A stretch of 64,000 nt of DNA from Verrucomicrobiota bacterium (GCA_037139415.1 JBAXGN010000003.1:1-64000); one strand, 5' to 3'; positions 39,811-59,080 are shown, counted from the stretch's first letter. Made by a program: numbers and translations. Notes: generated by a model from the sequence alone, not told the origin.

Positions 39811-40371
39811 ATGCTAAGTTTGTCACAGAGTACCGGCTATGCCATTCATGCCCTCAGTTGCATGAAGCATGACGGCGTGTGCCTGATCCAGGATATCTCC
39901 CGGCGCACAGGCATTCAGAAGCCGTATCTGGCCAAGCTCGTCCACAAACTTTCAGGCCTGAACCTGATTCTCAGCAAACGCGGTCGCCAGGGCGGAATCA
40001 TGCTGGCTAGGCCGCTCGATGAAATCACCGTGCTGCAAGTGGTAGAGGCGGTGGAAGGGCGCGCTTGGATGGGACAGTGCCTGCTGGGATTGCACGCCTG
40101 CAACGCGCAGCATATTTGCCCCTCCCACAAATTGTGGACGAAGATGAAAGAGCAGATTTGCAAGTCGCTGCAAAAAATCACGCTGGCGGATGTGTCGGCG
40201 GAGAAGTTACGAAATCAGGGCAACTGCATGCCGGACCGCTGCCAGGCGTCCGGGCGACGGCGGCCAAGCGGCAGGCCGACGCAAACAAAGGACGCAAATC
40301 AAATTTTCGGTGACGGTGACAGACCAACCGACGCCAAAACTGTGGTGCAAGGAGCAAGGAAGCCCCACTGA
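39811..40371 (+). CDS. Rrf2-family transcriptional regulator with Cys cluster
   Basis: A 186-residue protein from the ATG at 39811; a TTG 21 bases upstream is possible but would add a non-typical leader. LSLSQSTGYAIHALSCM and the winged helix (RRTGIQKPYLAKLVHKLS, then SKRGRQGGIML) are typical of Rrf2. Cys90, Cys97 and Cys103 lie where IscR/NsrR/RsrR-type proteins bind an Fe-S cluster, so it probably senses redox state, NO or iron. The tail after about residue 140 is long, basic and low-complexity. It stands directly upstream of the plus-strand cytochrome operon and divergent from the minus-strand one, so it probably controls one or both. Confidence 0.85.
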   Translation: MLSLSQSTGYAIHALSCMKHDGVCLIQDISRRTGIQKPYLAKLVHKLSGLNLILSKRGRQGGIMLARPLDEITVLQVVEAVEGRAWMGQCLLGLHACNAQHICPSHKLWTKMKEQICKSLQKITLADVSAEKLRNQGNCMPDRCQASGRRRPSGRPTQTKDANQIFGDGDRPTDAKTVVQGARKPH

Positions 40372-40445: not shown

Positions 40446-41081
40446 ATGAATGCAGTAAAATACCTATTCAAACTCGCCGCCGCAGTTGCTATTGTGGCCA
40501 GCTCCATATTGGCCACTGCGGTCACTGCCAACGGCGCGACCACCATCAAAGGCAGCAAACATGATTTGACCCTTCAAACTTGGGGGACCAATCAAATCTG
40601 CATCTATTGCCACGCCTCACACAATGCGCTATCCACCTTGGTGCCATTGTGGAACCACGGAACCACGGTACAGGCCGCCTATACCCTGTATGGCAACCCG
40701 AACGGCACGATGCAGGCGGTAACGGCCCAGCCCTCCGGCACTTCCAAGGCCTGTTTGAGCTGCCATGACGGAACGGTGGCCAACGACACCTTCGGCGGGG
40801 CAACGGGCAGCCACAGCATCTCTGGCCTCTCAAATCTGGGCACCGACCTCAGCAAAACACATCCCATATCATTCACCTATGACGCCGCGCTAGCCATCGC
40901 GGACAAAGCGCTGGTCTCCCCGGCCTCCGCCGCCAAAGTGGACGCGGCAGGCAACATTCCGCTCTTCCTCGGAAAAGTGGAGTGCGGTTCCTGCCATGCC
41001 GTGCATGATAGCACCTATACTCCCTTCTTGCGGATGAACAACAACGGCAGCGCGATGTGTCTGACCTGCCATATTAAGTAA
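40446..41081 (+). CDS. secreted tetraheme cytochrome c
   Basis: A 211-residue protein with a signal peptide (ending near TANGA, residue 30) and four CXXCH motifs (CIYCH, CLSCH, CGSCH, CLTCH). Sequence blocks such as ASKACLSCHDGTVA and DLSKTHPISFTYD recur in the first ~200 residues of the 12-heme cytochrome at 45738, so the two share an ancestral module. It is periplasmic and may pass electrons to the porin-associated cytochrome. Confidence 0.9.
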   Translation: MNAVKYLFKLAAAVAIVASSILATAVTANGATTIKGSKHDLTLQTWGTNQICIYCHASHNALSTLVPLWNHGTTVQAAYTLYGNPNGTMQAVTAQPSGTSKACLSCHDGTVANDTFGGATGSHSISGLSNLGTDLSKTHPISFTYDAALAIADKALVSPASAAKVDAAGNIPLFLGKVECGSCHAVHDSTYTPFLRMNNNGSAMCLTCHIK

Positions 41082-42362: not shown

Positions 42363-42625
42363 TCCCGAGCGTGCGCGCCTCACCCCAACATCGTTCCCGT
42401 CCAAGAGCAGAAGCACGCCTGTTTTGGTGTTGTCTGGTCGTGGGCATGGGCCTCGGGCTTTTGCTGGTCAGCGGCTGTGCGACCCAAACGAAACACGCTT
42501 GGTTGACGTTTTTCTTTGATGGCGTACCGCCGGTGACAACGAAGGGTGTCAGCGCCATGCCAGCCACCGTGGTTGGGACCACCAACGCCCCCGTAAACCC
42601 TGATGTCAGCAGGGGAATTCAATGA
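42359..42625 (+). CDS. small lipoprotein of the porin-cytochrome operon
   Basis: Up to 88 residues; a TTG at 42359 overlaps the NHL gene's stop, but an internal GTG or ATG closer to the lipobox may be used. The lipobox LLLVSGC gives a mature lipoprotein of about 49 residues. HAWLTFFFDGVPP is the one recognisable stretch, seen in my recollection in longer cytochrome-linked lipoproteins, so this may be a shortened version. It overlaps the barrel gene by four bases (42622-42625). Confidence 0.65.
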   Translation: MIPSVRASPQHRSRPRAEARLFWCCLVVGMGLGLLLVSGCATQTKHAWLTFFFDGVPPVTTKGVSAMPATVVGTTNAPVNPDVSRGIQ

Positions 42626-44634
42626 ACGCCTGGCCGATCAAGAACAGTGCGCCGGTATGGCTACTCCTGCTGGGACTGGTTGGCGTTGGCAGCCCCCTGA
42701 TGGCCCAGTATCGGAATGAGGACCAGTCACCACAATTTCAATGGCTGCGCGCCAAAGTAACCGAGGTGGGGGTAACCTTGGAAGTCGAGAGCGAGAATGA
42801 AACCCGGCAAAGTCCTAACTCCGACGTCTCAAAACGCAGCTACACGTACATCGCCCCCCTGGTCAACCTGGGCATCCAAGGTTCGATCTATCACCCCAAC
42901 TTGATGGAGTTCAAACTGAGCGGACAGGATGGGGTCAGTTGGCAGCAACAAACGCTCAACCAGCAGGCGGGACGCAACCAACCCGGCAGCGAATCCGCGT
43001 TTCGCTTTTTGCAGCGGTACCATGGTGACTTAAACATTCTCAAAGAAAAGCCGTTTTCGCTCAATTTTTTCGCGGACAAGGACCATAATTTCCGGCAGTT
43101 CGATTTTTTCAATCGCTCCACGGTGGATAGCCAACGGTATGGCGGACGCGCCGGTTACCAGGAAGGTCCACTGCCCTTCAATCTGGGCGTGACGCATTTG
43201 GACGAGCAAGTTTCAGCGACAATTCGTCCGACCACCTTGGATGAAACCACTGCCTCCTTTGATATTCGCCATGATCGCTCGCGCACCTCCAACACCCGGT
43301 TGAGCTACAGCTATGATCAATTTGACCGCCGGGAGTCGGGTGTTCCCGTCCAACAAGGCACGTATCACGCGGTGAATCTGCTGGATGATGAGGCGTGGGG
43401 CAAGGACGACCGGTACAAATTATCGTCCAGCCTGTTTTACAACAAACTGGAGAACCAGATGCTGCCCACGACCAGCCTGCTGATCCAGGAACATGGCATT
43501 GCGGAACACACCAAGGAACTGCAGAGCAATTTGGAGTATGGGTTTGATAACAACACGGCGGGAACCACGCAGAGCCAGGGCCAAAACGGCCAGATCGCCT
43601 TGCGCCATCAATTATACGAGAGCCTATCCTCGGTCTTGGAAACGCATCTCCACACCCTCGACTCTTCCAGTCCGACCGCCAGCACGGAGAATCTGCGGTA
43701 CGGGGTTGGTCTGAGCGAGTCCTATACGAAACATGTGGGAAGTTGGGGAATTCTGACTTTGGGCTACAACGGCCGGTATGATATCGAACAACGCCAAAAC
43801 ACCGGAACCATCATTCTGATCGTGGGTGAGCCACACACCATGAAAAAAGGGATCATTGTTTATTTAAACCAACCACGCGTCATTAAAGTCATTCGCATCA
43901 CGGACATGACTGGCAAAGCGTATGTGGAAAATCTCGACTACCGACTCGTCCCGCACGGGGATTTGATGCAGATTGATTGGGAGACCCTGCCCGCCACCAC
44001 GATCAAGGATGGCGATGGCATCCTGGTGGACTATCAAGTCGCCGTCCAACCGTCGGCCACCTTCACCACGATCGCCAACCAGTTGTACTTCCGCCTGGAC
44101 ATCCTAAAAGGTCTGGTGGGCATCTATGGACGCTGGAATGCGGTCAATAACCACGGCGGGCGGGACGTCATTTTGCAGAATATTTCGGACAAAGTCATCG
44201 GCACTGATTTTTCCTGGCGCTGGTTCCGGGCCGGGGCGGAATACGAACTCTACGATTCCAACCTGGCCCCGTATAATTCCAAACGGCTGTTCGAGGCGTT
44301 CAATTTTGAACCCGACGCGAACTCCGTGCTGGGTATTGATCTGGACCAGACGTGGTTCACATTTACGGATAGCAACCGGCGGCGGGCCAGCTATAGTTTT
44401 ATCTCGCGCTACAACACCCGCTTTACCACCCATCTTGCCTGGTCGGCGGAGGGCGGGGTACGCATGGATCGCGGCGTTGGGTTTGACCAAACCATGGTGG
44501 TGGCCAAGACCGGCCTCGAATACACCCGCAACCTGCTTTCGTTAAAAATGGGCTACGATTACTCGGATCAGGATTACCTGGGTGAATTGCGAACGCGCCA
44601 CTTCTTTTTCCTGCACATCAAGCGATCCTTCTAA
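42622..44634 (+). CDS. large outer-membrane beta-barrel (putative porin of a porin-cytochrome complex)
   Basis: A 670-residue protein with a signal peptide (VWLLLLGLVGVGSPLMAQ). The rest has alternating amphipathic strands rich in Tyr, Phe, Arg, Asp and Asn, and ends with an aromatic residue (FFFLHIKRSF), which is the outer-membrane insertion signal. About twenty or more strands are likely. A short inserted domain (about 400-480; LNQPRVIKVIRITDM, then VLVDYQVAV) interrupts the barrel. Flanked by multiheme cytochromes on both sides, it best fits a conduit barrel that holds a cytochrome across the outer membrane, as in Geobacter and Shewanella conduits (function known there; inferred here). Confidence 0.75.
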   Translation: MNAWPIKNSAPVWLLLLGLVGVGSPLMAQYRNEDQSPQFQWLRAKVTEVGVTLEVESENETRQSPNSDVSKRSYTYIAPLVNLGIQGSIYHPNLMEFKLSGQDGVSWQQQTLNQQAGRNQPGSESAFRFLQRYHGDLNILKEKPFSLNFFADKDHNFRQFDFFNRSTVDSQRYGGRAGYQEGPLPFNLGVTHLDEQVSATIRPTTLDETTASFDIRHDRSRTSNTRLSYSYDQFDRRESGVPVQQGTYHAVNLLDDEAWGKDDRYKLSSSLFYNKLENQMLPTTSLLIQEHGIAEHTKELQSNLEYGFDNNTAGTTQSQGQNGQIALRHQLYESLSSVLETHLHTLDSSSPTASTENLRYGVGLSESYTKHVGSWGILTLGYNGRYDIEQRQNTGTIILIVGEPHTMKKGIIVYLNQPRVIKVIRITDMTGKAYVENLDYRLVPHGDLMQIDWETLPATTIKDGDGILVDYQVAVQPSATFTTIANQLYFRLDILKGLVGIYGRWNAVNNHGGRDVILQNISDKVIGTDFSWRWFRAGAEYELYDSNLAPYNSKRLFEAFNFEPDANSVLGIDLDQTWFTFTDSNRRRASYSFISRYNTRFTTHLAWSAEGGVRMDRGVGFDQTMVVAKTGLEYTRNLLSLKMGYDYSDQDYLGELRTRHFFFLHIKRSF

Positions 44635-45741
44635 ATGCGTTCAATCCTCACATATCCATGGTTGAAAAAGCCGGATACGACCCAGGCTGGGGAAAAGCAT
44701 CTGGTGGGGTGGGATGTAAATACGGTTCCGTATGCCATCCTCACCCTGGCGCTCAGCACGTTTTTGTTCAGTGGTTGCAGCTTGGTAAAGGCCCCGCACG
44801 TTGCGGACAAGCCGGTGTATCGCGTCTGGCCGGAGCCCCCTGCTCCGCCGCGTCTGGCGTATGTTCAGAGCGTGTATGAACCGGCCGATCTGGGAGTCCG
44901 CTGGAACGGCAGGCAACGATTCTCACGCTGGCTGTTTGGCACGGAACCTGGCCAGGGCAAACTGATCAAACCTTTCGGCGTGGCGTTGGACGAAACGGAT
45001 AACCTTTGCCTCACGGATACCGGGTCCAGGGTGGTATGCTATTTCGACCGCACCCGGAAAACCTGGCAGAGCTGGAATAAGATCGGGCGAATCCAATTGG
45101 TCTCTCCCGTCGCGGTGGCCAAATATCAAAACCGGTTGTTTGTCGCGGACTCGGGCTTGGGCAAAGTGCTGGCATTCGACCCGCAGGGAAAATTCCTGTT
45201 CGAGTTGAATCATCCACTGGAGCGTCCAGCGGGCCTGGTGATCGCCAATGGCAAACTGTATGTGGCGGATGCGGGCGCGCATCAGGTTTTGGCGTTTGAT
45301 CTGCACGGCAACTTTCTGTCCGCCATGGGCACCCGCGGCACCGGACCCGGCGAATTGAATTACCCGACCCACCTGGCAACCGATGGGCAAGGCCGGGTGC
45401 TGGTTACCGACTCGATGAACTGCCGGGTGCAAATCTTCGATACCGAGGGACGTTATGTGCAAACCATTGGCAGCCAGGGCGACAGTTCGGGCAACCTCAG
45501 CCGCCCCAAGGGAGTGGGCGTGGACAGCGACCGCAATGTGTATGTATTGGACGCCCTGTTCGACAATGTACAAGTATTTGATCAGGAAGGGCGTTTTCTA
45601 TTAGGGGTGGGTGGCCCCGGGCCGGGGGCGGGAGAGTTTTGGATGCCTGCCGGACTGGCGATTGGTCGGGACAACCAGATATTTGTGGCGGATACGTATA
45701 ACCGCCGGATTCAAATTTTCAAATACCTCCATCAGCCATGA
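44635..45741 (+). CDS. NHL-repeat lipoprotein
   Basis: A 368-residue protein starting at the base after the barrel's stop. The lipobox TFLFSGC gives an acylated N-terminus near residue 48. The mature protein begins with YRVWPEPPAPPRLAYVQ, like the first NHL protein, followed by six NHL blades (FGVALDETDNLCLTDTG, AGLVIANGKLYVADAG, KGVGVDSDRNVYVLDA, LAIGRDNQIFVADTYN). The two NHL genes are probably paralogous. It overlaps the 12-heme cytochrome gene by four bases. Confidence 0.85.
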   Translation: MRSILTYPWLKKPDTTQAGEKHLVGWDVNTVPYAILTLALSTFLFSGCSLVKAPHVADKPVYRVWPEPPAPPRLAYVQSVYEPADLGVRWNGRQRFSRWLFGTEPGQGKLIKPFGVALDETDNLCLTDTGSRVVCYFDRTRKTWQSWNKIGRIQLVSPVAVAKYQNRLFVADSGLGKVLAFDPQGKFLFELNHPLERPAGLVIANGKLYVADAGAHQVLAFDLHGNFLSAMGTRGTGPGELNYPTHLATDGQGRVLVTDSMNCRVQIFDTEGRYVQTIGSQGDSSGNLSRPKGVGVDSDRNVYVLDALFDNVQVFDQEGRFLLGVGGPGPGAGEFWMPAGLAIGRDNQIFVADTYNRRIQIFKYLHQP

Positions 45742-47474
45742 ACGCGAACCCAATATCAGTCCGAATACGCGGCACCGCGCGCAAGCCAAACGGTCCGTTT
45801 TGGCGAGGCTGGATTCTCGTAGCGCTGTTGCCATTCGCAAGCGTGGCGGACCCGATCGGGCAAGGCATTCGCAGTTCCAAACACAACCTCTCGGCATCCA
45901 GTCCGGGCACCGTCAAGTCGGTGACGGAAACCGAAATCTGCATTACCTGCCATACCCCGCACACCGTGAAACGACAGGCGCCACTCTGGAACCACCAAGA
46001 TTCCGGTGCGGTGTACACCCCCTACACTAGCTCGACCAAAAAAGCTACGATCGGACAGCCCACCGGCGCATCCAAGCTTTGCCTGAGTTGCCATGACGGT
46101 ACCATCGCCATGGGCATGGTGCAAAAAACACGTCTCAATAAAAGCGCGCAGCCGGAGATCCGGACCCTGGCCTCTGGGGCAATCAAAATCGGCCCGGACT
46201 TATCCGATGATCATCCGATTTCGTTCACCTACGACTCCGCCCTGGTCATGGCCAACGGCCAACTCCGCGATCCAGCCAGCCTGACCGGACCGGTTCACCT
46301 GGACGCAAACAAGCAGGTGCAATGCACCTCGTGCCATTCCGCGCACGACAACAAGAATGGCAAATTCCTGGTACAAAACAACTACGGTTCCACCCTGTGC
46401 ATGGCCTGCCACAACCTGGCCCGGTGGGACCTATCAGTGCATAAACTTTCCACCAAAACGTGGAATGGCGTCCCCCCCAACCCCTGGTCGCATACCAAGG
46501 AAACGACGGTGCTCGCCAACGGTTGTGAGAATTGCCACCGGCCGCACTCGGCCGGCACCAAAGCCCGGTTGCTTAATTATCCCGGGGACGAATCCAACTG
46601 TTACCCGTGCCATAATGGCAATGTGACGGCGAACAGCATCCAGAAGGAATTCAACAAAACCTCGGTCCACCCCATCACGTTCACCACCGGCGTGCATGAT
46701 CCCATGGAAGATGCGGTGAATGCCACCCGGCATGTCACCTGCGTGGATTGCCATAATCCGCACGCGGTCAACGCGCAAACCGCCAAGGCCCCGCTGGTTT
46801 CCGGCTCCCTGGCCGGCGTCAAGGGTGTCACTGCCACCGGGGCCCGCATCACCCCGATCTCCCGTGAATACGAGTTGTGTTTCCGTTGTCACGCAGACAG
46901 TCCGGGGCGCGGGGCACCCTCCGTGCAACGCCAATTTCCGCAAACAAACACCCGGTTGGAATTTGGTTCCGCCAGCGGTTCCTATCACCCGGTGGTCAAT
47001 CTCGGCAAAAACCCGAATGTCCCCAGCCTGATTTCACCATGGACCACCAGCAGCCTGATGTATTGCACGGACTGCCACAATAATAACACCGGACCGGGGG
47101 CGGGTGGGAATGGGGCCAAAGGGCCGCATGGCTCGACCTATGCGCCGATCCTGGAACGCCGCCTGGAGTTGACCGATAATCAAATCGAAAACTCCGCCTC
47201 ATACGCGCTTTGCTACAAATGCCACAGTCGCGCCAGCATCCTAAGTGATCAGAGCTTCAAAACGCACAATAAACACATCACCACCGCGCGAACCGCTTGT
47301 ACCACGTGTCACGATTCGCACGGGGTGGCGGCCGCCAACCATTTGATTAACTTCAACACCTTGTACGTGACCAAATCCTCCGGCGGACGTTTGGAGTTTG
47401 TTGACAATGGCACGTATCGCGGAACCTGTTACCTCACCTGCCATGGAAAGGATCACAACCCTTTGTCGTACTAG
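45738..47474 (+). CDS. 12-heme cytochrome c (11 CXXCH plus one CX3CH)
   Basis: A 578-residue protein with a signal peptide (about 20-38). Eleven CXXCH motifs run from CITCH near residue 69 to CTTCH near 531, plus CYLTCH (CX3CH) close to the C-terminus. The first third repeats the module of the tetraheme cytochrome at 40446. It is the most likely partner inside or at the barrel at 42622. It is followed after 18 bases by the giant fusion gene. Confidence 0.9.
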   Translation: MNANPISVRIRGTARKPNGPFWRGWILVALLPFASVADPIGQGIRSSKHNLSASSPGTVKSVTETEICITCHTPHTVKRQAPLWNHQDSGAVYTPYTSSTKKATIGQPTGASKLCLSCHDGTIAMGMVQKTRLNKSAQPEIRTLASGAIKIGPDLSDDHPISFTYDSALVMANGQLRDPASLTGPVHLDANKQVQCTSCHSAHDNKNGKFLVQNNYGSTLCMACHNLARWDLSVHKLSTKTWNGVPPNPWSHTKETTVLANGCENCHRPHSAGTKARLLNYPGDESNCYPCHNGNVTANSIQKEFNKTSVHPITFTTGVHDPMEDAVNATRHVTCVDCHNPHAVNAQTAKAPLVSGSLAGVKGVTATGARITPISREYELCFRCHADSPGRGAPSVQRQFPQTNTRLEFGSASGSYHPVVNLGKNPNVPSLISPWTTSSLMYCTDCHNNNTGPGAGGNGAKGPHGSTYAPILERRLELTDNQIENSASYALCYKCHSRASILSDQSFKTHNKHITTARTACTTCHDSHGVAAANHLINFNTLYVTKSSGGRLEFVDNGTYRGTCYLTCHGKDHNPLSY

Positions 47475-47492: not shown

Positions 47493-50400
47493 ATGAAATA
47501 CCGGGAACTCATCCAGTTTGAACCCCTCACGGGAGCGGTTCGGCTTCAAGACGCCAATCGCAAGGACGCGGCGAAGCGGCTGGTGTCCGACTTCCTGATT
47601 TCCGGGGAGATGGCCGCCCGACTGACGGGACAGATTTTCCCCCATCTGCAACTCGAACGCGCGGGCGAAGGCAAGGCGCTGCTGGTGACCGGCAACGGCG
47701 GACGCGGCAAAACCCATTTAATTGCCGCAGTATCCGCCCTCGCGGAATACGCGGAGTTGGCGGAAGCCGTCACCAACCCTAAGGCGGTCCAGGCAGAGGC
47801 CACCAACCGCAAAGGCAACGCCGGAATCGAAGCCATTGCCGGCCGCTTTAAAGTCATTCGCATTGAGCTTGGCGCATCCTCCAAGACGCTGCGGGATCTC
47901 CTCACCCGCCGCTTCACCACCTACCTGGCTTCCCAGGGAGTTGCGTACACCTTCCCGCCTTTCACCAGGGGTAAAGTCCACAAATCGGGATTCGAGGGAA
48001 TGATGGCGGCGTTCCATCAGCAGTTTCCCGACCACGGGTTATTGGTGGTGGCGGATGGTTTGCAAGCGCATCTGGAGCCACGCAAAGGTCAGGAATTGGC
48101 CGAGGATTTGCAGTTCCTGCGCGAACTGGGCGAGGCGTGCCAGCACTTGAAGTTCCGCTTCCTGGCCAGCTCCCGGGACGCGCTTTTCGACCATGCCCAG
48201 GACAAACCCACCACCGACATTCTCCACCGGGTCAAGGAGCAATTTCACACGGTGGCGCTCAACACCCGAGATGCCGCCTATATCGTGGCCGAACGCCTGA
48301 CCCGCAAGACGCCCGAACAAAAGGCGCAGGTGCAGTCGCATTTGGCCAGGTTTGCCAAATACTATGGCAACCTGAAGGATCGGATGTCGGAGTTCGTGGC
48401 CTTGTTCCCGCTTCACCCCGACTTCCTGACCGTCTGCGAAAAGATCAACTTCGCCGAAGGCCAGTGCCTGCTGCGCGCAGTCTCAGACCTCATCAAGCAG
48501 CGGTTGGACGAACCGCTTCCCCAAGACGATCCCGGCCTGATTGCCTATGACCATTACTGGGACATCATCCATACCCGGTCAGCCTGGCAATCCATACCTG
48601 AAATCGAGGCTGTCACCGAGCGTTACATCACCTTAAATGCCAAACTGGGGAAAGTCCTGGCGTGCTCCGATCAACAAGATCTGGCCCGGCGCCTTCTGAA
48701 TGCCTTGTGCGTGTACCGCCTAGCCACCAGCGATATTTATTGCCAGACGGGTGCCACCGCCCCGGAATTTCGGGATCTGCTCTGCCTGTGCCGACCCGGC
48801 TTGGAGACCGACGGCGTGCAACCGGCGGAAAAGCTATTGGCTGAGGTGAAAGAGGTGCTCACCGCGCTGCACCAGGCGACGGGCAACCAGATCCTCTCCT
48901 TTAACCCGGAGAACCAGCAGTACTATCTGAATTTCCAAAAGTTCCGGCGCTTCGTCCGTCCGGAGTTGGTGCTGCACTGGGTCAACGCCGTTCCGTTCGT
49001 CCTCTTGATGCTCACCGGCGGCATTATGGCGGCAGCGCGATTCTTCCAGATGAACCGCGAATGGATGTCCATGGTGGTGCTGGTACACAAGGTCTTTGCC
49101 ATTTTCTGGATCACTGCCCTGCCCCTCGTGGTGTTGCTGCGGCCCAAGGTCCACTGGGCGCACATCCGCATCGTGTTGAGCTGGGGCAAAAAGGACCTGC
49201 TCTGGATGGTGCAATCGGTGCGCAGCCTGTACGACAAAAAAGCCGTCATCGCCGCCGTGGGCCGCTTCAACACCGGCCAGAAGATCAACGCCTCCCTGGT
49301 GATGGTGTATTTCATTGGCTTTGGGTTGACCGGCCTGCTCATGCTGTTCAAGGGCACCATTCTGGTGCCATGGTATCTGCATGCGGCGTTGTTCTTCGCC
49401 ACCACGGGCTCGGTGGGCGGTCACCTATTCCTGGCACTGCTCAATCCCAGCACGCGCATTGCGCTGATGGGCATCTTTCACGGCTGGTCGCCCATGGAAT
49501 ACGTCGAGCATCATCACACCCTCAGCTTGCCGCCCTCAATGCGTTCGCACGCCGAACCGGCCAGCAACAAAACCATCATGGAGGAAATTTTTGTTTCCAA
49601 GGTGGAAGTTGTCATCCTCGCGGTGGCGGTGATCATGGCCATCCTTGGCGCCATCGTATTCAGCCAGGCTCCACTGGCCTCGGCAAAACAGCAATTCTCC
49701 AAGCATTTCTCGGCCACCATCACCCCAAATCAATTATCCACCAAGCATCGCCTTGGACCGGCGGCGGAATCCTGCACCAAGTGCCATGCCTACGCGGGCG
49801 AAATCCCCGACGCCAAATGCGTGGAGTGTCATAAGGACGTTCAGGCGCGACGCGTCAGCCTGGCCGGGTACCACGGCACCCTGAAAGGTTCCTGCATCAG
49901 TTGCCACAAGGAACACTTGGCCATGGGCAAATCCATTGTGCCGCTGGTCAAAGAGAAATTTGATCACAACCTGGCCAGCTTCAAGAAAGAGGGCAAACAC
50001 ATCAAAGTGAATTGCGATGAATGCCATAAGAAAACCCGCACCAAGGATACCCCCGGCATTTATTACATCGGCATCAAGTACCAGCAATGCACCGATTGCC
50101 ATCGCGATCAGCACAATCAGCAGTTCGCCGCCAACACCTGCGAGAAATGCCATACCGTTAATGGCTGGACCGGAAAGGATCTGAAGTTTGCGCACGACAA
50201 GGACTCCACATACAAGTTGACGGACAAACACGCCTCCGTGGAATGCTACAAGTGTCACAAACCCAAAGCGCCCGCCACTGCACTGGGCACCGCCGTATTC
50301 AAAGGGCTCTCGCAGGAATGCGTGGCCTGCCACGAAGATCCCCACCGCAAACAATTCGCCGCCCAATGCACCACCTGCCATACCCCCAAGGGCTGGAACA

Positions 50401-51491
50401 AGGAATTATTGACGTTCGAGCATAACAAGGATTCCAAGTTCAAACTGACGGAAAAACATACCGCGGTGGCCTGCGACAAATGCCACAAACCCGAGCTCGG
50501 GAAAAAGCTCGCTTCCGCGCTCTTCCGTGGTCTGAAATCTGAGTGCGTGGAATGCCACAAGGACCCGCACAACAGACAGTTTCAGCAAACCTGCGCCAAG
50601 TGCCATGCTGCCACCGGTTGGAAGAAGGAACTGTTGGCGTTCGATCACAATAAAGACAGCAAGTTCAAACTGACGGACAAACATGCCGCTGCCGCCTGCG
50701 ACAAATGCCATAAGCCGACCGACCCGGAGAAGAAACTGGCCTCCGCACAGTTCCGTGGCTTGAAGTCCGAGTGCGTGGATTGCCATAAGGACCCGCACAA
50801 TGGACAATTCCAGCAGGCCTGCACCAAGTGTCACACCGCCCCCACCACCTGGACGATCAAGCAACTCGCGTTTGACCATACCAAGGACACCAAGTTCACA
50901 TTGACGGGCAGGCATATCCCGTTGGAGTGCGTGAAGTGTCACAAGCCGACCGATGCGGACAAAAAACTCGCCTCCGCCAAGTTCAAGGGGCTCGACACCA
51001 CCTGCGACAAGTGTCATACCGTCAAACACCCGGAACAGTACGGTTCGCTCTGCGTCTCCTGCCACTCCACCGCCAATCCATTCATCAAGAAAGACCCGGG
51101 CACCACGCATATTCTGCGTTATACCTGCTTTGGCGAAGCCCTCACCGGCAAGCATTTGAAAGCCAAATGCAACACCTGCCATGAACCCGCGAAAATCGCC
51201 CTTCTGGGGCAATTAACCCCGGCGGATCAGACGTGCCTGCGCTGCCACCAGAAGGATGACGCGCACAAGGGCATGCTGGATGCCAACTGCACCAAGTGTC
51301 ACGGCATGGAAGGTTGGAAGGGCGAACATCTCCAGTTCGACCACAACACCATGTCAAGCTACCGGCTCAACCAGGACCACAAGAATGTGGCGTGTGCGAA
51401 ATGCCATAAGGATGGCAAATGGAAACCGGTGAGCACCGCCTGTGAAAGCTGCCATCCAAAATTCTTCGAGGGCGGGGCCAAGAAACCGTAG
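47493..51491 (+). CDS. DUF6079/PglY-like AAA domain fused to cytochrome b membrane domain and 23-heme cytochrome c
   Basis: A 1332-residue protein in one frame, preceded by GGGGA. Residues 1 to about 482 match the DUF6079 (BREX PglY-like) AAA proteins: TGNGGRGKTHL (Walker A), FLRELGEACQHLKFRFLA, VKEQFHTVAL, FAKYYGNLKDRMSEFV, ATSDIYCQTGATAPEFRD, and a family-like NPENQQYYLN at the join. The expected Walker B (VVDEL in the family, as I recall) reads VVADGL. From about 485 it reads as a cytochrome b561/formate dehydrogenase gamma-type domain (RRFVRPELVLHWVN) with four membrane segments and a fifth at about 704-727. Then 23 CXXCH motifs follow (761 onward), many in ~77-residue repeats (DKHAAxACDKCHKP, FRGLKSECVxCHKDPHN). 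With five membrane segments, the AAA part is cytoplasmic and the haems periplasmic. I know of no such fusion. Confidence 0.85.
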   Translation: MKYRELIQFEPLTGAVRLQDANRKDAAKRLVSDFLISGEMAARLTGQIFPHLQLERAGEGKALLVTGNGGRGKTHLIAAVSALAEYAELAEAVTNPKAVQAEATNRKGNAGIEAIAGRFKVIRIELGASSKTLRDLLTRRFTTYLASQGVAYTFPPFTRGKVHKSGFEGMMAAFHQQFPDHGLLVVADGLQAHLEPRKGQELAEDLQFLRELGEACQHLKFRFLASSRDALFDHAQDKPTTDILHRVKEQFHTVALNTRDAAYIVAERLTRKTPEQKAQVQSHLARFAKYYGNLKDRMSEFVALFPLHPDFLTVCEKINFAEGQCLLRAVSDLIKQRLDEPLPQDDPGLIAYDHYWDIIHTRSAWQSIPEIEAVTERYITLNAKLGKVLACSDQQDLARRLLNALCVYRLATSDIYCQTGATAPEFRDLLCLCRPGLETDGVQPAEKLLAEVKEVLTALHQATGNQILSFNPENQQYYLNFQKFRRFVRPELVLHWVNAVPFVLLMLTGGIMAAARFFQMNREWMSMVVLVHKVFAIFWITALPLVVLLRPKVHWAHIRIVLSWGKKDLLWMVQSVRSLYDKKAVIAAVGRFNTGQKINASLVMVYFIGFGLTGLLMLFKGTILVPWYLHAALFFATTGSVGGHLFLALLNPSTRIALMGIFHGWSPMEYVEHHHTLSLPPSMRSHAEPASNKTIMEEIFVSKVEVVILAVAVIMAILGAIVFSQAPLASAKQQFSKHFSATITPNQLSTKHRLGPAAESCTKCHAYAGEIPDAKCVECHKDVQARRVSLAGYHGTLKGSCISCHKEHLAMGKSIVPLVKEKFDHNLASFKKEGKHIKVNCDECHKKTRTKDTPGIYYIGIKYQQCTDCHRDQHNQQFAANTCEKCHTVNGWTGKDLKFAHDKDSTYKLTDKHASVECYKCHKPKAPATALGTAVFKGLSQECVACHEDPHRKQFAAQCTTCHTPKGWNKELLTFEHNKDSKFKLTEKHTAVACDKCHKPELGKKLASALFRGLKSECVECHKDPHNRQFQQTCAKCHAATGWKKELLAFDHNKDSKFKLTDKHAAAACDKCHKPTDPEKKLASAQFRGLKSECVDCHKDPHNGQFQQACTKCHTAPTTWTIKQLAFDHTKDTKFTLTGRHIPLECVKCHKPTDADKKLASAKFKGLDTTCDKCHTVKHPEQYGSLCVSCHSTANPFIKKDPGTTHILRYTCFGEALTGKHLKAKCNTCHEPAKIALLGQLTPADQTCLRCHQKDDAHKGMLDANCTKCHGMEGWKGEHLQFDHNTMSSYRLNQDHKNVACAKCHKDGKWKPVSTACESCHPKFFEGGAKKP

Positions 51492-51607: not shown

Positions 51608-52045
51608 TCAAGCCGCCAGCGTCGCACAGTTACGTTGATTGATTTTGGCGATCAGCACCAGCAAGTCTGTCCGCGTGAATTTCCAAGCAAACGGCTGCGC
51701 GATCTGTTCGTAGTAAGTTTGAAATGCCAGCAGGCGTTCGGCCACTTCTTCAACGACGTAAAATCATTGGGCGTGAGGACTTTTCGCTGCACGATCGAAA
51801 CGTAAATTTCCACTTGGTTTAGCCAACTGGCATGGACTGGCAAATGAACCAAAACCAAATTGGGGTAAGCCGTTTGTAGCCGTCGGATGGCGGCGGCACC
51901 GCGATGGGAGGATCCATTGTCCACGATCCAAAAGACCCGCTTGGCGTGGCGGTAGGGTTCCTGGGCCATGACTTGCTGGACTACTCCAGTTTGACCAATC
52001 AGGCCGCGTGGTTTGGAAATGGCATGACCCCATGCTTTGCCGGCA
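51608..52045 (-). pseudogene. IS630-family transposase C-terminal remnant with frameshift
   Basis: The main frame reads VMAQEPYRHAKRVFWIVDNG, then SSHRG and LVHLPVHASWLNQVEIYVSI, the catalytic second Asp and Glu region of IS630 DDE transposases. Just after TPNDFTSLKK, one base appears to be missing; the family sequence continues in another frame (AERLLAFQTYYEQIAQ to NQRNCATLAA, stop at 51608-51610). The N-terminal half is absent. It lies between the cytochrome operon and the sigma-factor genes. Confidence 0.8.
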
Positions 52046-52147
52046 GCATCCCGGCGTGATCATTCTGGATGACCTTGATCCCGCAGTGCTTAACGATGAT
52101 GTGACCTCGGTGCCAGGGCCGATGCGATAGAATTCCGGTTGGCCGGA

Positions 52148-52948: not shown

Positions 52949-53533
52949 TTACAAATACTTATTTTGGGAAATTTTGGCCAGAACTTTACGCATTTCCGCG
53001 CGCGCCCGAAACGCGCGCACCTTGACCAGCGGCACCGACCAGCCGGTTAATTCCGCAATTTCTTTGACGCTTTTTTCCTCAATTTCCAAGAGTGTGATGA
53101 CCAGGCGCGCCGATGGAGAAAGTTGTGCCAACACACGTTCCACCAACTGTTTGGCCGCATTCGAGTCGTCCGACGACGGTTCGGGTTGGGCGGCAAACCG
53201 TTCGAGCCAGTCATGTTCTTCGTCACTGATTTCCGTGAGCGTAATTTCGCGATTGCGCTGGTGCCCGCGCAGAAAGTCGTAGCAGACATGCACGGTGAGC
53301 CGCATGAGCCAGTGTTCAAACGGGGCTTCGCCGCGAAACGTGCCGAGCCGCTGAAAAGCCCGCAGCCAGACTTCCTGGACAATATCCTCCACCTCGCTCT
53401 CCCGGCGGGCATAACGGCGCGCGGTCGCAAACACGCGGGGCGAATACTTTTTTACCAGGGGCTCAAAACTGACGGTATCCCCTTGCAGAACAGCGGCAAT
53501 GAGTTCGGCATCGGTGCGCTCCATGGAAATCAT
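52949..53533 (-). CDS. ECF-type RNA polymerase sigma factor
   Basis: A 194-residue protein. Sigma-2 region: DAELIAAVLQGDTVSFEPLV, VEDIVQEVWLRAFQ. Sigma-4 region: LSPSARLVITLLEIEEKSVKEI, followed by the HTH ELTGWSVPLVKVRAFRAR. Start at the ATG at 53533, which overlaps the stop of the ligase/polymerase gene (53530). With the next two genes it forms a sigma / anti-sigma-like / CpxP-like set, probably responding to envelope stress. Coupling to a polysaccharide gene suggests it reacts to, or controls, surface polymer production. Confidence 0.9.
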   Translation of the reverse strand: MISMERTDAELIAAVLQGDTVSFEPLVKKYSPRVFATARRYARRESEVEDIVQEVWLRAFQRLGTFRGEAPFEHWLMRLTVHVCYDFLRGHQRNREITLTEISDEEHDWLERFAAQPEPSSDDSNAAKQLVERVLAQLSPSARLVITLLEIEEKSVKEIAELTGWSVPLVKVRAFRARAEMRKVLAKISQNKYL

Positions 53534-56040
53534 CCCGCCCAGATAATCAGGCGCTCGGCGAGCTGCACCGCCAGACGCGCGGCCCCAGCCAGCTTGTTTT
53601 GATCCCGCTCAGTTTGATAGGCCAGCCAGAGGAAACGCGGCTGGTTGGGAAAGCGCGCGGCCAATTCCTGGAACAAGGCGGAATCGCGCGATTTTACGGG
53701 CTGCAAATAGGCGCGCTCGGCCAGACGCTGGGCGAGGCTCTCATTATCCGGTGAGGCTCGCCAAGCGGACAGCAGTGCTTCCAGCGGCGGTAAATCTTCT
53801 TCGTTCTGTGCGATGGGAAAACGCGCTTGCAGCCGCTTGCGAACCTGGGAACCCGCCCAGAACACCTCCGCTTGGCGAATGGTATCGGCATACTGTCTCA
53901 GCTCGTACAAAGCCTGAATCTGCACCAGTCGGACATTCAGATTATTGGATGGCAAGGGGAGCAGGTTGAGCGCGGCTTCCGGCATTTTGATGCGCAGAAA
54001 CTTTTTGGCCAATTCCAAGCGATCTTCCCGGCCCACCAACATTTGATATGCTTGAGCCGCCTGAGTATTCAAGCCGCGTTCCGCCGCAAAGTCACCCAGC
54101 ACTTTCAGGGTACCCGGGGTATCCGGGGTTAGGGACCAAAGGACTGACGGACGAGAATCACCCAGCCAGGCGATTTCCAAGGCGGGCCGCAGCAGGTCCG
54201 GTTTGGTTAGGTCCAACCGGCGCAGAAACTCCATGGAGGTCAAGGGATCGCGCCGGGCGAAATGGCGGGCGAAACGCAGGCAAATGCGCGTTTCCAACGG
54301 GTTGAGTCGAACCACCTCAAAGGCCTCCTGACGCGCCCGCACCGCATTGGTGGAAAATGCCAAGTCCAACCAAGTCCGCTCCAGCCGGAGTTCCCAGTTC
54401 ATCGGGTCCAAGCACAAGGCATGATTCAGTCTCTCTCTGGATGCGCCCGCACTCGCCCGCTGGACGGAACGATTTTGCGAGGCAAACAGTTCCACCTCGC
54501 CGCGTGCCAAGCCAACCTCCCGGCGGCTATCCAAAGGCCACCACTCGCGAGCTTTTCTGGCCTCAGCGACGAAAGCGGCTGGCGCGCGCACCTGCTGCGC
54601 GCTCTGCCAGTGCCAGAACGCCACCCCCTGCAACACCGCAACCAGGGTCAGGACACCCGCCCAGGCAAAATTGACCGCGACCCGCCAATTCGCCGGCGGC
54701 AAGGGTAATGCCGGACGGCACGGCTGATCCCGCATTCCCACCAGCACACCAAGCAACACGGCAGCCAGGATGGCATTGGCCGGAATTTGGAACACAAACT
54801 CGAACAAGGCATGAAAGGCGAAGACGGTCAAACCCGCCAAGGCGCCGAAACATAATTCCGGTTCCGGCATGGTCTCCTTTAATGCAAAACCAATCACGCG
54901 CCAAAGCAGCCAGCCCAGGCAAACCCCAAAGAAAAGCCCCCCCACAGCCCCGGTTTCAACCAACAGTTGCAACCAGTCGTTTTCCACGTGCCAAATCATC
55001 CGTTCCCCCTCCATCTGCTTGTAATGGCTGAACACCGAAACGAAGCTGCCCAGTCCGGTGCCAAACAGGGGAAAATGTGCCGTCATTTGCACTGCCTGTT
55101 TCCAAATTTCCACCTTGAAAGGGAATTGGGAGCGGACGGTGGCCAACCGGTCAAACAGCAAGCTGCTGGCCGATACCAATGCCAACACCAGCAAGAACAA
55201 GGATATCCCCACCCCAAGCCAGCGTTTATGGCTGTGCGAACGCAACGACAGAAAGGCACCCCACACGACCAGGCCCACGCCAAAAGCAATAAAACCACCG
55301 CGCGACCCACTCAACGCCGCCATCGCCAGCCCAAATATCAGGGTTCCAAAAATCGTCACAAACCGGAGCGGTGAACGTTTCTTTCCGCCATACAATATGG
55401 TGCGGGCCGCATGCAGCGGTTGGGCATTCCGAATCAACCAGCCAAACAGGAACAGGCTGGCCATATAGATGTAGTTGGCAAAATGATTACGATTGGCAAA
55501 GGTGCCGGCGGCGTAGGCGCATTGAACCTCCCAGATTCCCATGATGCTTTTCCCGCCATGATACCGCAGCCAGACATCGCTGAGCGCCAAAACGGCAACG
55601 GTGCCCGTAAGCACTCCAGCGAGATGCAAAGGAAACGCCGGGCGTGCCATGCCCAAACGCGCCAGGCAAAAAAAGGTGGCCACCAAACTCAATTCCCACA
55701 GCCGTTGTAACGCACCGCCAACGCACAAACCGAACGAAAGCCAGGTCGAAGGGTGTCCTGATTCGATCGGAAACGACTGCGCCAACAAGGCACGCTCCGG
55801 GCACAACGCGCCCACCACCCCTGCCGGTAGCGGCACCAACGGGAGCAGGATGATTCCCAGCGCCAGCAACTTGCACCAGCCCGGGAACAGGCGCACCGAC
55901 CACGCGCCCCATTCAGCGGACAATAGCGCGACACTCAACGCCAGCAAAAGCCCCACCATCACCTGCCCTTCGGCAGTGATGGAACCGTAAAGCAATGGGG
56001 ATAGAAACAACGCCACCAACCATGGATAATGCCGCCACAT
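53530..56040 (-). CDS. O-antigen ligase/polymerase (Wzy/WaaL-like) membrane protein with helical-repeat C-terminus
   Basis: An 836-residue protein. Residues 1 to about 480 contain 11-13 membrane segments with the periplasmic loop landmarks of the Wzy_C/O-antigen ligase family: GTFANRNHFANY, SGSRGGFIAF, GTGLGSFVSVF, and HVENDWLQLLVETG. The C-terminal ~330 residues are soluble and helical, with TPR-like character (LKVLGDFAAERGLNTQAAQAY, then LVQIQALYELRQYAD). It would polymerise or transfer repeat units of the exopolysaccharide exported by the Wza/Wzc proteins encoded upstream on this strand. Confidence 0.85.
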   Translation of the reverse strand: MWRHYPWLVALFLSPLLYGSITAEGQVMVGLLLALSVALLSAEWGAWSVRLFPGWCKLLALGIILLPLVPLPAGVVGALCPERALLAQSFPIESGHPSTWLSFGLCVGGALQRLWELSLVATFFCLARLGMARPAFPLHLAGVLTGTVAVLALSDVWLRYHGGKSIMGIWEVQCAYAAGTFANRNHFANYIYMASLFLFGWLIRNAQPLHAARTILYGGKKRSPLRFVTIFGTLIFGLAMAALSGSRGGFIAFGVGLVVWGAFLSLRSHSHKRWLGVGISLFLLVLALVSASSLLFDRLATVRSQFPFKVEIWKQAVQMTAHFPLFGTGLGSFVSVFSHYKQMEGERMIWHVENDWLQLLVETGAVGGLFFGVCLGWLLWRVIGFALKETMPEPELCFGALAGLTVFAFHALFEFVFQIPANAILAAVLLGVLVGMRDQPCRPALPLPPANWRVAVNFAWAGVLTLVAVLQGVAFWHWQSAQQVRAPAAFVAEARKAREWWPLDSRREVGLARGEVELFASQNRSVQRASAGASRERLNHALCLDPMNWELRLERTWLDLAFSTNAVRARQEAFEVVRLNPLETRICLRFARHFARRDPLTSMEFLRRLDLTKPDLLRPALEIAWLGDSRPSVLWSLTPDTPGTLKVLGDFAAERGLNTQAAQAYQMLVGREDRLELAKKFLRIKMPEAALNLLPLPSNNLNVRLVQIQALYELRQYADTIRQAEVFWAGSQVRKRLQARFPIAQNEEDLPPLEALLSAWRASPDNESLAQRLAERAYLQPVKSRDSALFQELAARFPNQPRFLWLAYQTERDQNKLAGAARLAVQLAERLIIWAG

Positions 56041-56167
56041 TATTGAATGTTAAAACGCCCCAATCGCATGAAAAAACACGCCAAATCCGCCCTATTCGAC
56101 ACCGGATGAACCAGCTCGACGGACGCAGTCACTGGAATCTCATGTGAGTTCGGTCTCAACCTTTGGT

Positions 56168-58408
56168 TCAGATATTACCTTCAGTTTTAACTTCCGTGTT
56201 CGCGGCAGAACCCCCCTTGGCGGACGGCGATGCCGCGTCGTCCGTCCGGGTTGGATGGTCGTCGTCGTCGGAAACCGCACGGCCCTTGCGATAATAACCA
56301 TGATAGTAATGGTTATAGTAATAGTAGGGATTATCGGCGGTGATACCATTCAAAACAATACCAAATATTTGCCCCCCGCGCTGATGCACGGCGGCCAGGG
56401 CGTTTTTGGCAAAACGCAGCGAGGTTTGTCCAGCGCGGATCACGAACAGAATTCCATCCGCAGCGGGAACCAAGGCAAACGCGTCGTCAATGGCGGTCAA
56501 CGGCGGACAGTCAAACACGATGTAATCAAACTCATTGCGCACTTCCTCAATAAAGGGGGTGGTGAGCGGGCCAATCAGCAATTCTCCGGGATTTTTCGGC
56601 AGGCTGCCGGTGGTTAGGAGAAACAGCGTTGGAACCTGTGTGGTTCTTATTGCCTCACGCCAATCCGTCTTGCCACTTAAAACGTCAGCCAACCCCAAAG
56701 TACGCTCCAACTTGAAATAGTTGTGGGTATTGCCGCGACGCATATCCGCATCCACCAACAACACTTTGTTGCCAGCCGCCGCAAGCGTGACGGCAAAATT
56801 GACGGTAAACGTGGTCTTGCCATCACCCGGAATGGCGCTGGTGACAATCAGCACCTGCTTGCGTTCGGCTTCCACACCCAACATGACCGCCGAGCGCACC
56901 ACCCGGATGGATTCTGCAAACATGCTATGCTCGTCCATGTCCGAAATCAGGATGCTGCCTGCTCCCGACTTGCGCTTGATCAACGGTACTTGGCCCAACA
57001 CCGGTTCCTCCAGCTCGGTTTCAATGTCTTCCGCCAGTTCCAGCCGGTCATCCAGGCGATCAAGGAGATAGATGATACCCATTCCCAGCGCGAGCCCGAC
57101 CAACAAGCCGCTGAGAATGATTTTCTGCCGGTCTGGACTTACCGGTGCAGGTGTACCGATGCCTTCCTCGAGGATTGTGAGCATGTTGTCCCGGTTATTG
57201 TTGGCTTCCAACGAGCGAACCGTCTTGCGCAGATCCTCCAAATCCGCTTTGACATCATTCTCATCCGACTTTAAGCGTTCAAACTCGTTCTGGACGCCGC
57301 GTGATTCAAATACTTGATTGCGCAGATTATCAATCAGGGGCTTATAACTCTCCTCATCGCGGCGCAGGGACTCAATGCGGGCTTTGCGCTTTTCCTCAAT
57401 CATCTCCAACTGGTACTGCAAATCCCGCCGCAGCCGGTCCAAGTCCGTGGTCAAACTAACCATGTACGGATGCTTGGGCTTCAAAGTTTTGAGCCAATGA
57501 TTGTAATCCGACTCGCGGTTGCGCAGTTGCAGATCCACGTCGCCAAACTTCGTTTCCCCCAGAAAGCGATCCAATGGGTCAATGGTATCATTACGGGCAT
57601 TGCCAGTCTTATCTGGGTTGGCGGACTTCTCAGGAGTTTTACGGGTTTGCATGAGCCCACCCCGGGCAAGGTCCTGGCTGGTTTTATTTTCGAGCCGTTG
57701 GCGCATCGTCTGGATGGCGGTAAACTCATCCAGCAGGTTATCCAAGCGTTGCTGCGCGGCATCCGCAGTTTCCTTGACACTCGCAATGTTGTTCTTTTTT
57801 TGGAAATCCTGCAACGTTTGCCGGGCATGTTCGAGCCGTTTCTCGTAGCGCTCAATATCGCGCCGGGTTTCCGCGAGCCGCTCGGAAACCACCCCTTGGT
57901 TGCGTTCATCCAGAAAGGACATGAATTCACGAGCCCAGAAAATGGAGAACTGGCGGGCGAATTCAAAATCAACACTTTCGACCGTCATCAGAAAATAGCC
58001 GACGCCGCGCGAAGCCATGGGCGTGGCGGTGGCTTTGTTATCCGCAAACTGACGGTTGGCGCGTAACTTTTGATCCACCCGGTTCAGCACCGCGCTGCTA
58101 TGCATGTACTGCAAGTGATTTTCATAAAAGCTGGTCAGGTCCACCACCAACTGGCCGCCTTTGTCGTACGGGGTCACCACCCGCGGGGCAATGCCAATCT
58201 TGCTGGTGGCACGATATTTGTTCGGCGTGGTGAAGGCGTTATGCGCGGCAAAGCCGACGGAGACAATCACGGCCAGAACGAGCACGAACCATCTCCGCGC
58301 CAGCATTTTGAGATAGCGCCGAACGCGAAAATAGATATTCACCCGGTCCATCACGCCGGTACCGAAACCCATGGACTGTGGCGCTACATTAGGCTGTGGT
58401 GCATTCAT
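56168..58408 (-). CDS. wzc: polysaccharide co-polymerase / tyrosine autokinase (Wzc-like)
   Basis: About 746 residues from the ATG at 58408; a TTG nine bases upstream overlaps the stop of the wza-like gene and could also serve. N-terminal Wzz domain with a membrane segment (about 40-60), a long coiled-coil periplasmic part (about 150-420), a second membrane segment (about 440-460; IILSGLLVGLALGMGIIYLL), then a BY-kinase: Walker A IPGDGKTTF, Walker A' LLVDADMRRG, Walker B YIVFDCPP. The C-terminus has a cluster of tyrosines (YYYYNHYYHGYY) for autophosphorylation. It controls exopolysaccharide chain length and export. Confidence 0.9.
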   Translation of the reverse strand: MNAPQPNVAPQSMGFGTGVMDRVNIYFRVRRYLKMLARRWFVLVLAVIVSVGFAAHNAFTTPNKYRATSKIGIAPRVVTPYDKGGQLVVDLTSFYENHLQYMHSSAVLNRVDQKLRANRQFADNKATATPMASRGVGYFLMTVESVDFEFARQFSIFWAREFMSFLDERNQGVVSERLAETRRDIERYEKRLEHARQTLQDFQKKNNIASVKETADAAQQRLDNLLDEFTAIQTMRQRLENKTSQDLARGGLMQTRKTPEKSANPDKTGNARNDTIDPLDRFLGETKFGDVDLQLRNRESDYNHWLKTLKPKHPYMVSLTTDLDRLRRDLQYQLEMIEEKRKARIESLRRDEESYKPLIDNLRNQVFESRGVQNEFERLKSDENDVKADLEDLRKTVRSLEANNNRDNMLTILEEGIGTPAPVSPDRQKIILSGLLVGLALGMGIIYLLDRLDDRLELAEDIETELEEPVLGQVPLIKRKSGAGSILISDMDEHSMFAESIRVVRSAVMLGVEAERKQVLIVTSAIPGDGKTTFTVNFAVTLAAAGNKVLLVDADMRRGNTHNYFKLERTLGLADVLSGKTDWREAIRTTQVPTLFLLTTGSLPKNPGELLIGPLTTPFIEEVRNEFDYIVFDCPPLTAIDDAFALVPAADGILFVIRAGQTSLRFAKNALAAVHQRGGQIFGIVLNGITADNPYYYYNHYYHGYYRKGRAVSDDDDHPTRTDDAASPSAKGGSAANTEVKTEGNI

Positions 58409-58413
58409 GACCG

Positions 58414-59079
58414 TCAATTGATGACAAACCCTTTCTCCGGCACATCAATGATGTCGCCGTTTTGCAAAACGACATTGTTGGTGCGATTGCCACGCCGGAT
58501 TTCTTCGAGATCCACAACCCTGGTTGTAGCTTTTTGCGTCACCGGGTCCACGCGCTGCAGCTTCACTTTCTTTAAATTGGCAAATTCATTGACACCCACC
58601 TGATATACGGCCTCGAAAATGCGTTTTTCCTCGCCCGGCGCAAGTTGCAGCATGTTGCCACGGGAACCTTTGCCAATGAACAGCACCTGTCCAAACTTGG
58701 GCGCGGAATCCTTCAACTCCAGCTTCACATGGGCATCCTGATAAAAGTCGCCATCCAATTTTTCCTTAAGCTCCCGGCGCAGATCAGCCACGGTTCTGCC
58801 GCGCGCCTTCAAGGTGATGGTCATGTCCGAGCCGCGGGAGACACGAAACGAGGCATCCCCGGCGGCATTGACGCCGATCAGGTCCACATCCTGCGCCTTC
58901 ACCGGGTCTTCCTCGACCAGATAAATCAGGCGATCCTGCGTATTCAGAGTATATTCCACGTTCGTGCTGGCAGGCGCCACACTATTGGTAACCAGCTCCT
59001 CCGCTGCCAGCGCCTGTGGCAAAATCACCCCGCCCGCCAGTCCAGCGATCAGCACGAGAATGTTTATAACGGTACGCAT
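58414..59079 (-). CDS. polysaccharide export protein (Wza-like, Poly_export/SLBB)
   Basis: About 221 residues from the ATG at 59079 (signal peptide RTVINILVLIAGLAGGVILP, ending near ALAAEE). YTLNTQDRLIYLVEEDP opens the polysaccharide export domain, followed by a beta-grasp SLBB domain (GQVLFIGKGSRGN) and a terminal NGDIIDVPE. It is shorter than Wza (about 380 residues) and lacks the outer-membrane C-terminal helix and additional SLBB domain, so the nearby barrel at 59081 may provide the outer-membrane channel. It is followed after 5 bases by the Wzc-like gene. Confidence 0.85.
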   Translation of the reverse strand: MRTVINILVLIAGLAGGVILPQALAAEELVTNSVAPASTNVEYTLNTQDRLIYLVEEDPVKAQDVDLIGVNAAGDASFRVSRGSDMTITLKARGRTVADLRRELKEKLDGDFYQDAHVKLELKDSAPKFGQVLFIGKGSRGNMLQLAPGEEKRIFEAVYQVGVNEFANLKKVKLQRVDPVTQKATTRVVDLEEIRRGNRTNNVVLQNGDIIDVPEKGFVIN

Positions 59080-59080
59080 G

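Follow-up and report, generated by a model that had tools for sequence, protein, structure and literature searches.

The BREX phage-defence protein BrxC begins with a fragment, residues 1-551, that consists of an AAA+ domain and a first winged helix (wHTH1), after which an alpha+beta domain comes next (PMC13326643; PMC12839542). In respiration, CbcL, MtrH and MtoC are inner-membrane quinol oxidases or quinone reductases with 3-23 c haems, built of an N-terminal multihaem part and a C-terminal, usually six-helix cytochrome b (PMC6295460). According to excerpts of two papers, freshwater Verrucomicrobia carry porin-multihaem clusters that were proposed for extracellular electron transfer (PMC5615132, PMC6344600). 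Here we describe a gene of a Verrucomicrobiota bacterium (GCA_037139415.1, JBAXGN010000003.1:1-64000; this whole stretch of 64,000 nucleotides is called the window) in which the N-terminal module of BrxC is fused to a membrane cytochrome b and a 23-haem cytochrome c. Both halves are of known kinds. In the literature searched, which was mostly open access, their joining is not reported, and no clear case of respiration inheriting a core module of BREX is described.

Results

A BrxC module, a cytochrome b and 23 haem motifs in one frame

The fusion gene is a single open reading frame of 1332 amino acids with no internal stop. Its features, in window coordinates, are as follows.

47493-51491, + strand: whole fusion gene (BrxC N-terminal module, cytochrome b and 23-haem cytochrome c), with homologous full-length fusions elsewhere
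47493-47519, + strand: start sequence MKYRELIQF, kept in BrxC, slightly varied in fusions and present even in AAA+-deleted ones
47550-48284, + strand: AAA+ core (ORC/Cdc6-type), from about residue 20 to 264; one genus, with four species, has it deleted
47691-47714, + strand: Walker A GNGGRGKT at residues 67-74, a motif that all seven fusions with an AAA+ core conserve
48039-48059, + strand: Walker B LLVVADG, residues 183-189, with the BrxC catalytic Glu replaced by Gly
48222-48242, + strand: arginine-finger stretch LHRVKEQ, residues 244-250, with the second finger Arg of BrxC replaced by Gln
48285-48932, + strand: lid of the AAA+ domain, then winged helix wHTH1 (together residues 265-480); 11 of 11 species keep both
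48930-48957, + strand: join, from the end of the wHTH1 wing to the start of cytochrome b (FRRF..PEL.LHW)
48942-49463, + strand: FdnI/b561-like cytochrome b with four membrane helices and with conserved His that would suit two b-haem pairs
49608-49664, + strand: fifth membrane helix, which puts the C-terminal part outside
49740-51488, + strand: multihaem c-type domain with 23 CXXCH

Using the whole protein as query, we found that residues 1-483 match PF19557 (DUF6079) over profile positions 1-473 of 1238 (E 5.9e-145), and that residues 489-653 match Ni_hydr_CYTB (PF01292) at E 3e-8, above the Pfam cut-off. The PADLOC BrxC-PglY profile also matches the N-terminal part (E 1.6e-151), and the formate dehydrogenase gamma model TIGR01583 matches residues 483-676 at E 1.2e-10, which is below that equivalog model's own cut-off. 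An AlphaFold2 model, built from the window sequence and sequences of related loci, was confident over the N-terminal part (predicted local confidence, pLDDT, mostly 75-94). Its residues 1-480 superpose on solved BrxC 1-551 (9zll/9zdx) with Z 21.7 and 4.7 A over 425 residues, Foldseek matched this part to solved BrxC at E 4.8e-9, and the next-best structural matches were ORC/Cdc6 proteins (Z 12.5). A sequence search of the PDB with either half returned nothing at E 0.01, and BrxC was found by fold search only. Residues 1-484 are the BrxC/PglY N-terminal module, made up of an ORC/Cdc6-type AAA+ domain, its lid and the first winged helix; an earlier note, made from the window sequence alone, had called this part DUF6079/PglY-like, and both profile matches and fold agree.

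The same note had placed the join near 48930-48950. In the model the wing strands of the winged helix lie at residues 468-471 and 476-479 and the first membrane helix begins at 489, which confirms that position and puts the join, at about 48930-48957, on the wHTH1 domain boundary of BrxC. Selection for a protein that folds would leave a join at just such a boundary.

The protein has five hydrophobic segments (residues 497-515, 528-546, 601-619, 632-650 and 706-724), and its even loops are basic, which supports a topology with the N-terminus inside and the C-terminus outside. Alignment of the fusions gave four candidate b-haem histidines: that of the LHW motif, kept in every aligned row covering the position, and those at positions 49, 147 and 161 of the cytochrome stretch. 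The last two are 14 residues apart, which is the spacing of the last two b-haem histidines in Escherichia coli FdnI; FdnI-like cytochromes b exchange electrons with quinones via two b haems. There are exactly 23 CXXCH motifs, every one after residue 725, compared with a mean of 0.13 and a maximum of 3 in shuffles of the protein. Inspection by eye revealed no convincing internal start for the cytochrome alone. Together, the reading frame and profile matches, the hydrophobic segments and motif count, and the basic loops bear out the earlier description of one unbroken frame joining the DUF6079-like, cytochrome b and multihaem parts, with a fifth membrane segment, 23 CXXCH motifs, the NTPase inside and the haems outside.

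The fusion is not part of a BREX system

In the window's own genome, which is 98% complete, we found no second DUF6079 protein and no PglZ, with the genomes handled as G269 and G757 serving as positive controls. The genome therefore has no BREX, membership of the fusion in such a system is ruled out, and the possible link to phage defence that had been raised is not supported. PglZ occurs in just two of the ten other fusion-bearing genomes, and in G269 a true BrxC and PglZ lie together on one contig, separate from the fusion gene. The alpha+beta domain, second winged helix (wHTH2), coiled coil and C-terminal dimerisation part of BrxC are absent from the fusion, in which the profile match stops at position 473 of 1238 and the cytochrome follows.

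Two further DUF6079-like genes were seen during the searches. Genome G267 (contig C98, locus L051, 8968-10086) has a 373-amino-acid orphan whose P-loop stretch is BrxC-like and corresponds to query residues 57-243. A gene for a Clp-like ATPase lies nearby, and the orphan is no cytochrome fusion. A genome of another class (G709, contig C131, locus L066) has a DUF6079 match starting at the equivalent of residue 275, with no P-loop core.

The fusion is shared by at least 11 species

We searched for relatives in 320 genomes of the order and 388 of the phylum. G013 has the full-length architecture, with 56% identity over residues 1-1328, and the order-wide search found fusions also in G268, G101, G269, G073, G246, G233, G232 (record CAIMLG010000191.1, Verrucomicrobia subdivision 3) and G242. 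Within the order, the fusion is borne by ten species of six families, the window included, and G464, from a different class of the phylum, has the same architecture. The fusion is thus known in at least 11 species, the window and ten others, and close relatives carry the two parts in one gene, not on separate genes. Those AAA+-bearing fusions that align in one piece are 47-56% identical across the join. The gene of G242 is split over two contig ends (L049, L055) and was counted as one species; the overlapping parts differ, which may reflect strain variants or two copies. The G269 fusion (L045) has a Gly-His-rich insert, HGHGHGDVHGHGH, between the fourth and fifth membrane helices, which is not in the other aligned fusions and may bind metal.

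In a maximum-likelihood tree of the N-terminal part, one branch (96/90) splits the 11 fusions from 17 BrxC proteins, and the same branch appeared in 96% of 200 bootstrap trees; the BrxC nearest to the fusions is that of G757. A single origin of the fusion would be the simplest reading, the root of the tree not being fixed. Four species of one genus have lost the AAA+ core and retain the lid and wHTH1. In the tree of the cytochrome half these four form one group (100/100), which indicates that the core was deleted once. When modelled alone, the lid and wHTH1 of an AAA+-less fusion gave a compact fold (pLDDT 82; predicted template-modelling score, pTM, 0.77), and a fold search with this module as query gave no significant match. 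The cytochrome b-multihaem half was never found unfused in the 320 genomes of the order or the 388 of the phylum, the latter also searched by profile, so its parent may have belonged to another phylum. Judged by these comparisons, the fusion is old and inherited and would derive from the joining of a brxC 5' part to a cytochrome gene. Of the two alternatives in the earlier note, a functional electron-transfer protein or a recombination product, each is partly right; the second stands as regards the parts that were joined, and the join proves to be an old, inherited one.

Catalytic residues of the NTPase are mostly lost

None of the seven AAA+-bearing fusions, not even the most divergent, has lost Walker A. 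The Walker B glutamate is retained in only two of them (DE in G013 and G268); the others have DG (window, G073), DQ (G101) or DD (G269, G464). DE is invariant in 17 of 17 aligned BrxC proteins, and the window has ADG. Finger positions were taken from PMC13326643 and mapped by spacing; by this mapping position 250, a finger arginine in BrxC, is occupied by Gln in the window, by His in G013 and by Tyr in G101. In G268 both finger residues are retained along with Walker B DE, so that its catalytic residues are intact. The BrxC-invariant positions lost in the AAA+ part of the fusions are mostly in the P-loop, Walker B, sensor 1 and finger stretches. When fusions are compared in pairs, likeness in the AAA+ core is 3.6 points below that in the lid and wHTH1, whereas in BrxC pairs it is 3.8 points above. 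In the same fusion pairs, identity is 23-49% in the AAA+ core and 52-71% in cytochrome b. Every fusion keeps some of the module, with the lid, wHTH1 and MKYRELIQF in all species, and residues such as G292, R297, Y416 and R486 are fixed in fusions, not in BrxC.

This residue pattern may mean either that catalysis was lost while the nucleotide-binding loop was retained, or that the domain is slowly decaying. Loss of the Walker B glutamate in five of seven AAA+-bearing fusions and of the whole core in four species shows that hydrolysis is not generally needed. For the window protein itself, with Gly for the Walker B glutamate and Gln for a finger arginine, the energy coupling entertained in the earlier note is not supported as far as ATP hydrolysis is concerned.

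The fusion lies in an electron-transfer gene cluster

The genes around the fusion are the following.

45738-47474, + strand: multihaem cytochrome with 11 CXXCH; 18 bases separate its end from the start of the fusion gene
44635-45741, + strand: NHL beta-propeller lipoprotein-like protein
42622-44634, + strand: 670-amino-acid secreted protein, porin-like by position and length, with a counterpart at L042 8420-10444
41256-42362, + strand: NHL beta-propeller protein
40446-41081, + strand: 4-CXXCH cytochrome
39790-40371, + strand: Rrf2-type transcriptional regulator
36478-39027, - strand: 13-CXXCH multihaem cytochrome of a divergent operon
33586-36503, - strand: ResB and CcsA-type cytochrome c maturation proteins

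The divergent side also includes genes for a B12-radical SAM protein and an NHL/Ig protein. G013 has the same layout as the window, and the other fusion loci have like kinds of genes in different orders, going by their lengths, haem counts and start sequences rather than by a family search at each locus; the exception is G073, where a 4-haem gene alone is in sight beside the fusion. The cluster is of the extracellular-electron-transfer type, and nearly all versions of the fusion have multihaem cytochromes, NHL proteins and ResB/CcsA around them.

Directly downstream of the fusion gene is a broken IS630-type (DDE_3) transposase in two frames (51652-52063, - strand). Adjoining the cluster, at 52949-60376 (- strand), an ECF-type sigma factor gene and polysaccharide synthesis/export-like genes were recognized by eye.

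Discussion

Defence genes are often said to be reused by their hosts, and this gene seems to be a case in which respiration took over a defence module. We propose, with slightly better than even confidence, that the protein is a quinone:multihaem cytochrome c oxidoreductase of the inner membrane with a domesticated BrxC scaffold. Its membrane cytochrome, with 23 haems, probably hands electrons on to the outside of the cell. The four-helix FdnI-like cytochrome b would trade electrons with the quinone pool via two b haems, and electrons from quinol would pass to the 23-haem domain on the outer face and on to the 11- and 13-haem cytochromes and the porin-like protein, a route of extracellular electron transfer. 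The 5' part of brxC would have been captured once, in frame, at the domain boundary where it joins the cytochrome gene. In most members the cytoplasmic module would no longer be an ATPase and would most likely bind nucleotide without turnover; it would offer the cytochrome a scaffold for pairing or assembly, or else a docking site, and one genus would need no more for this than the lid and winged helix. We infer the direction of electron flow, the quinone partner, nucleotide binding and the scaffold role, and the cytoplasmic step, pairing or assembly of the cytochrome by the nucleotide-bound module, is a weaker inference than the electron path.

We prefer a non-hydrolysing scaffold because the Walker B substitution E269Q in BrxC gives less hydrolysis and stronger ATP-dependent dimers of fragment 1-551, and BREX itself offers a precedent in BrxB, an inactivated AAA+ protein serving as a structural partner (PMC13326643). 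More tentatively, and as something possible rather than probable, the phage-defence AAA+ domain may have become a domesticated clamp, holding nucleotide without hydrolysing it, by which the respiratory conduit is assembled or gated from the cytoplasmic side. If so, an electron-transfer cytochrome would be under the control of a BrxC-type AAA+ domain.

Several points weigh against this proposal. An open frame alone is no evidence of function, since the cytochrome frame keeps the N-terminal domain open. The membrane part of the model is poor (pLDDT block means about 29-74), the 670-amino-acid porin-like protein had no Pfam match and no credible NCBIfam match, and one whole genus lives without the AAA+ core. 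Furthermore, arginine fingers touch the partner's ATP in the BrxC dimer, so the window protein, which is without one finger arginine, may also have lost ATP-stabilised pairing.

The main rival, which we regard as somewhat unlikely, is that the BrxC module is only a passenger. An old recombination would have left it as a neutral by-product that provided the promoter, the start codon and the N-terminus; it would now be kept merely because folding and frame are needed, and would be eroding slowly. The repeated loss of catalytic residues, the deletion of the AAA+ core in one genus and its faster evolution relative to cytochrome b all agree with this. However, Walker A is intact even in the most divergent fusion, the lid, wHTH1 and start sequence are kept in every species together with residues fixed in fusions and not in BrxC, and no fusion has lost the whole module. 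If instead the module were a regulator, driven by ATP or sensing nucleotide, that gated electron flow according to the energy state, the conserved Walker A, the Walker B DE of G013 and G268 and the two finger residues of G268 would be explained, but not the loss of the glutamate in most AAA+-bearing fusions or of the core in four species, and we consider this clearly unlikely.

Retention of the winged helix in all members could also point to a membrane-tethered transcription factor, in which wHTH1 binds DNA according to the redox state of the cytochrome. This is very unlikely, as BrxC 1-551, which carries wHTH1, showed no DNA binding (PMC13326643) and charge gives DNA binding no support, the stretch that forms the winged helix being acidic, with a mean net charge of -3 that is close to the value in BrxC. 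The phage inhibitor OrbA targets BrxC (PMC11580459), and a true BrxC fragment might serve as a decoy or sentinel that leads phage anti-BREX proteins to a respiratory complex; with BREX genes absent from the host, PglZ scarce among the other fusion genomes and an electron-transfer context, we find this highly improbable. A chimeric assembly or binning error might be suspected in a draft genome of 378 contigs. Nevertheless, the same domain order occurs in ten other species, whose assemblies share the join, the domain boundary and matching neighbours; a chimera is therefore excluded without read mapping, and we assign this explanation next to no probability.

The series of species, from G268 with its catalytic residues intact, through the five that lost the Walker B glutamate, to the genus with the core deleted, shows what the cytochrome retains of the module. 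The fusion further carries a warning, in that a DUF6079/BrxC match at such a gene would be miscounted as phage defence.

Compared with BrxC/PglY (PF19557; 9zdx, 9zll), the fusion shares the N-terminal module by sequence, fold and Walker A, but it is without the alpha+beta domain, wHTH2, coiled coil and dimerisation end. The window version is also without the Walker B glutamate, one finger arginine and BREX genes, and is tied to a membrane cytochrome. We do not file it as BrxC because the defining features tested fail. The features of an FdnI/HydC-type cytochrome b are present, as judged by the family match, four membrane helices and four b-haem histidines with the last two 14 residues apart. 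With CbcL, MtrH and MtoC the fusion has in common a HydC/FdnI-like cytochrome b and many c haems in one protein, often beside porin or cytochrome genes, but it has cytochrome b first and the haems last, five helices instead of six, and a BrxC module ahead. Because this order is reversed, we do not file it with them; the likeness, drawn from their description, is one of idea. The Verrucomicrobial porin clusters (PMC5615132, PMC6344600), also compared by description, come from the same phylum and have a porin-like gene beside multihaem cytochromes, as the window, where the multihaem genes are certain, may also have; in the excerpts of those papers the inner-membrane partner is unnamed and a BrxC fusion is not mentioned, and the fusion described here is a candidate for that partner.

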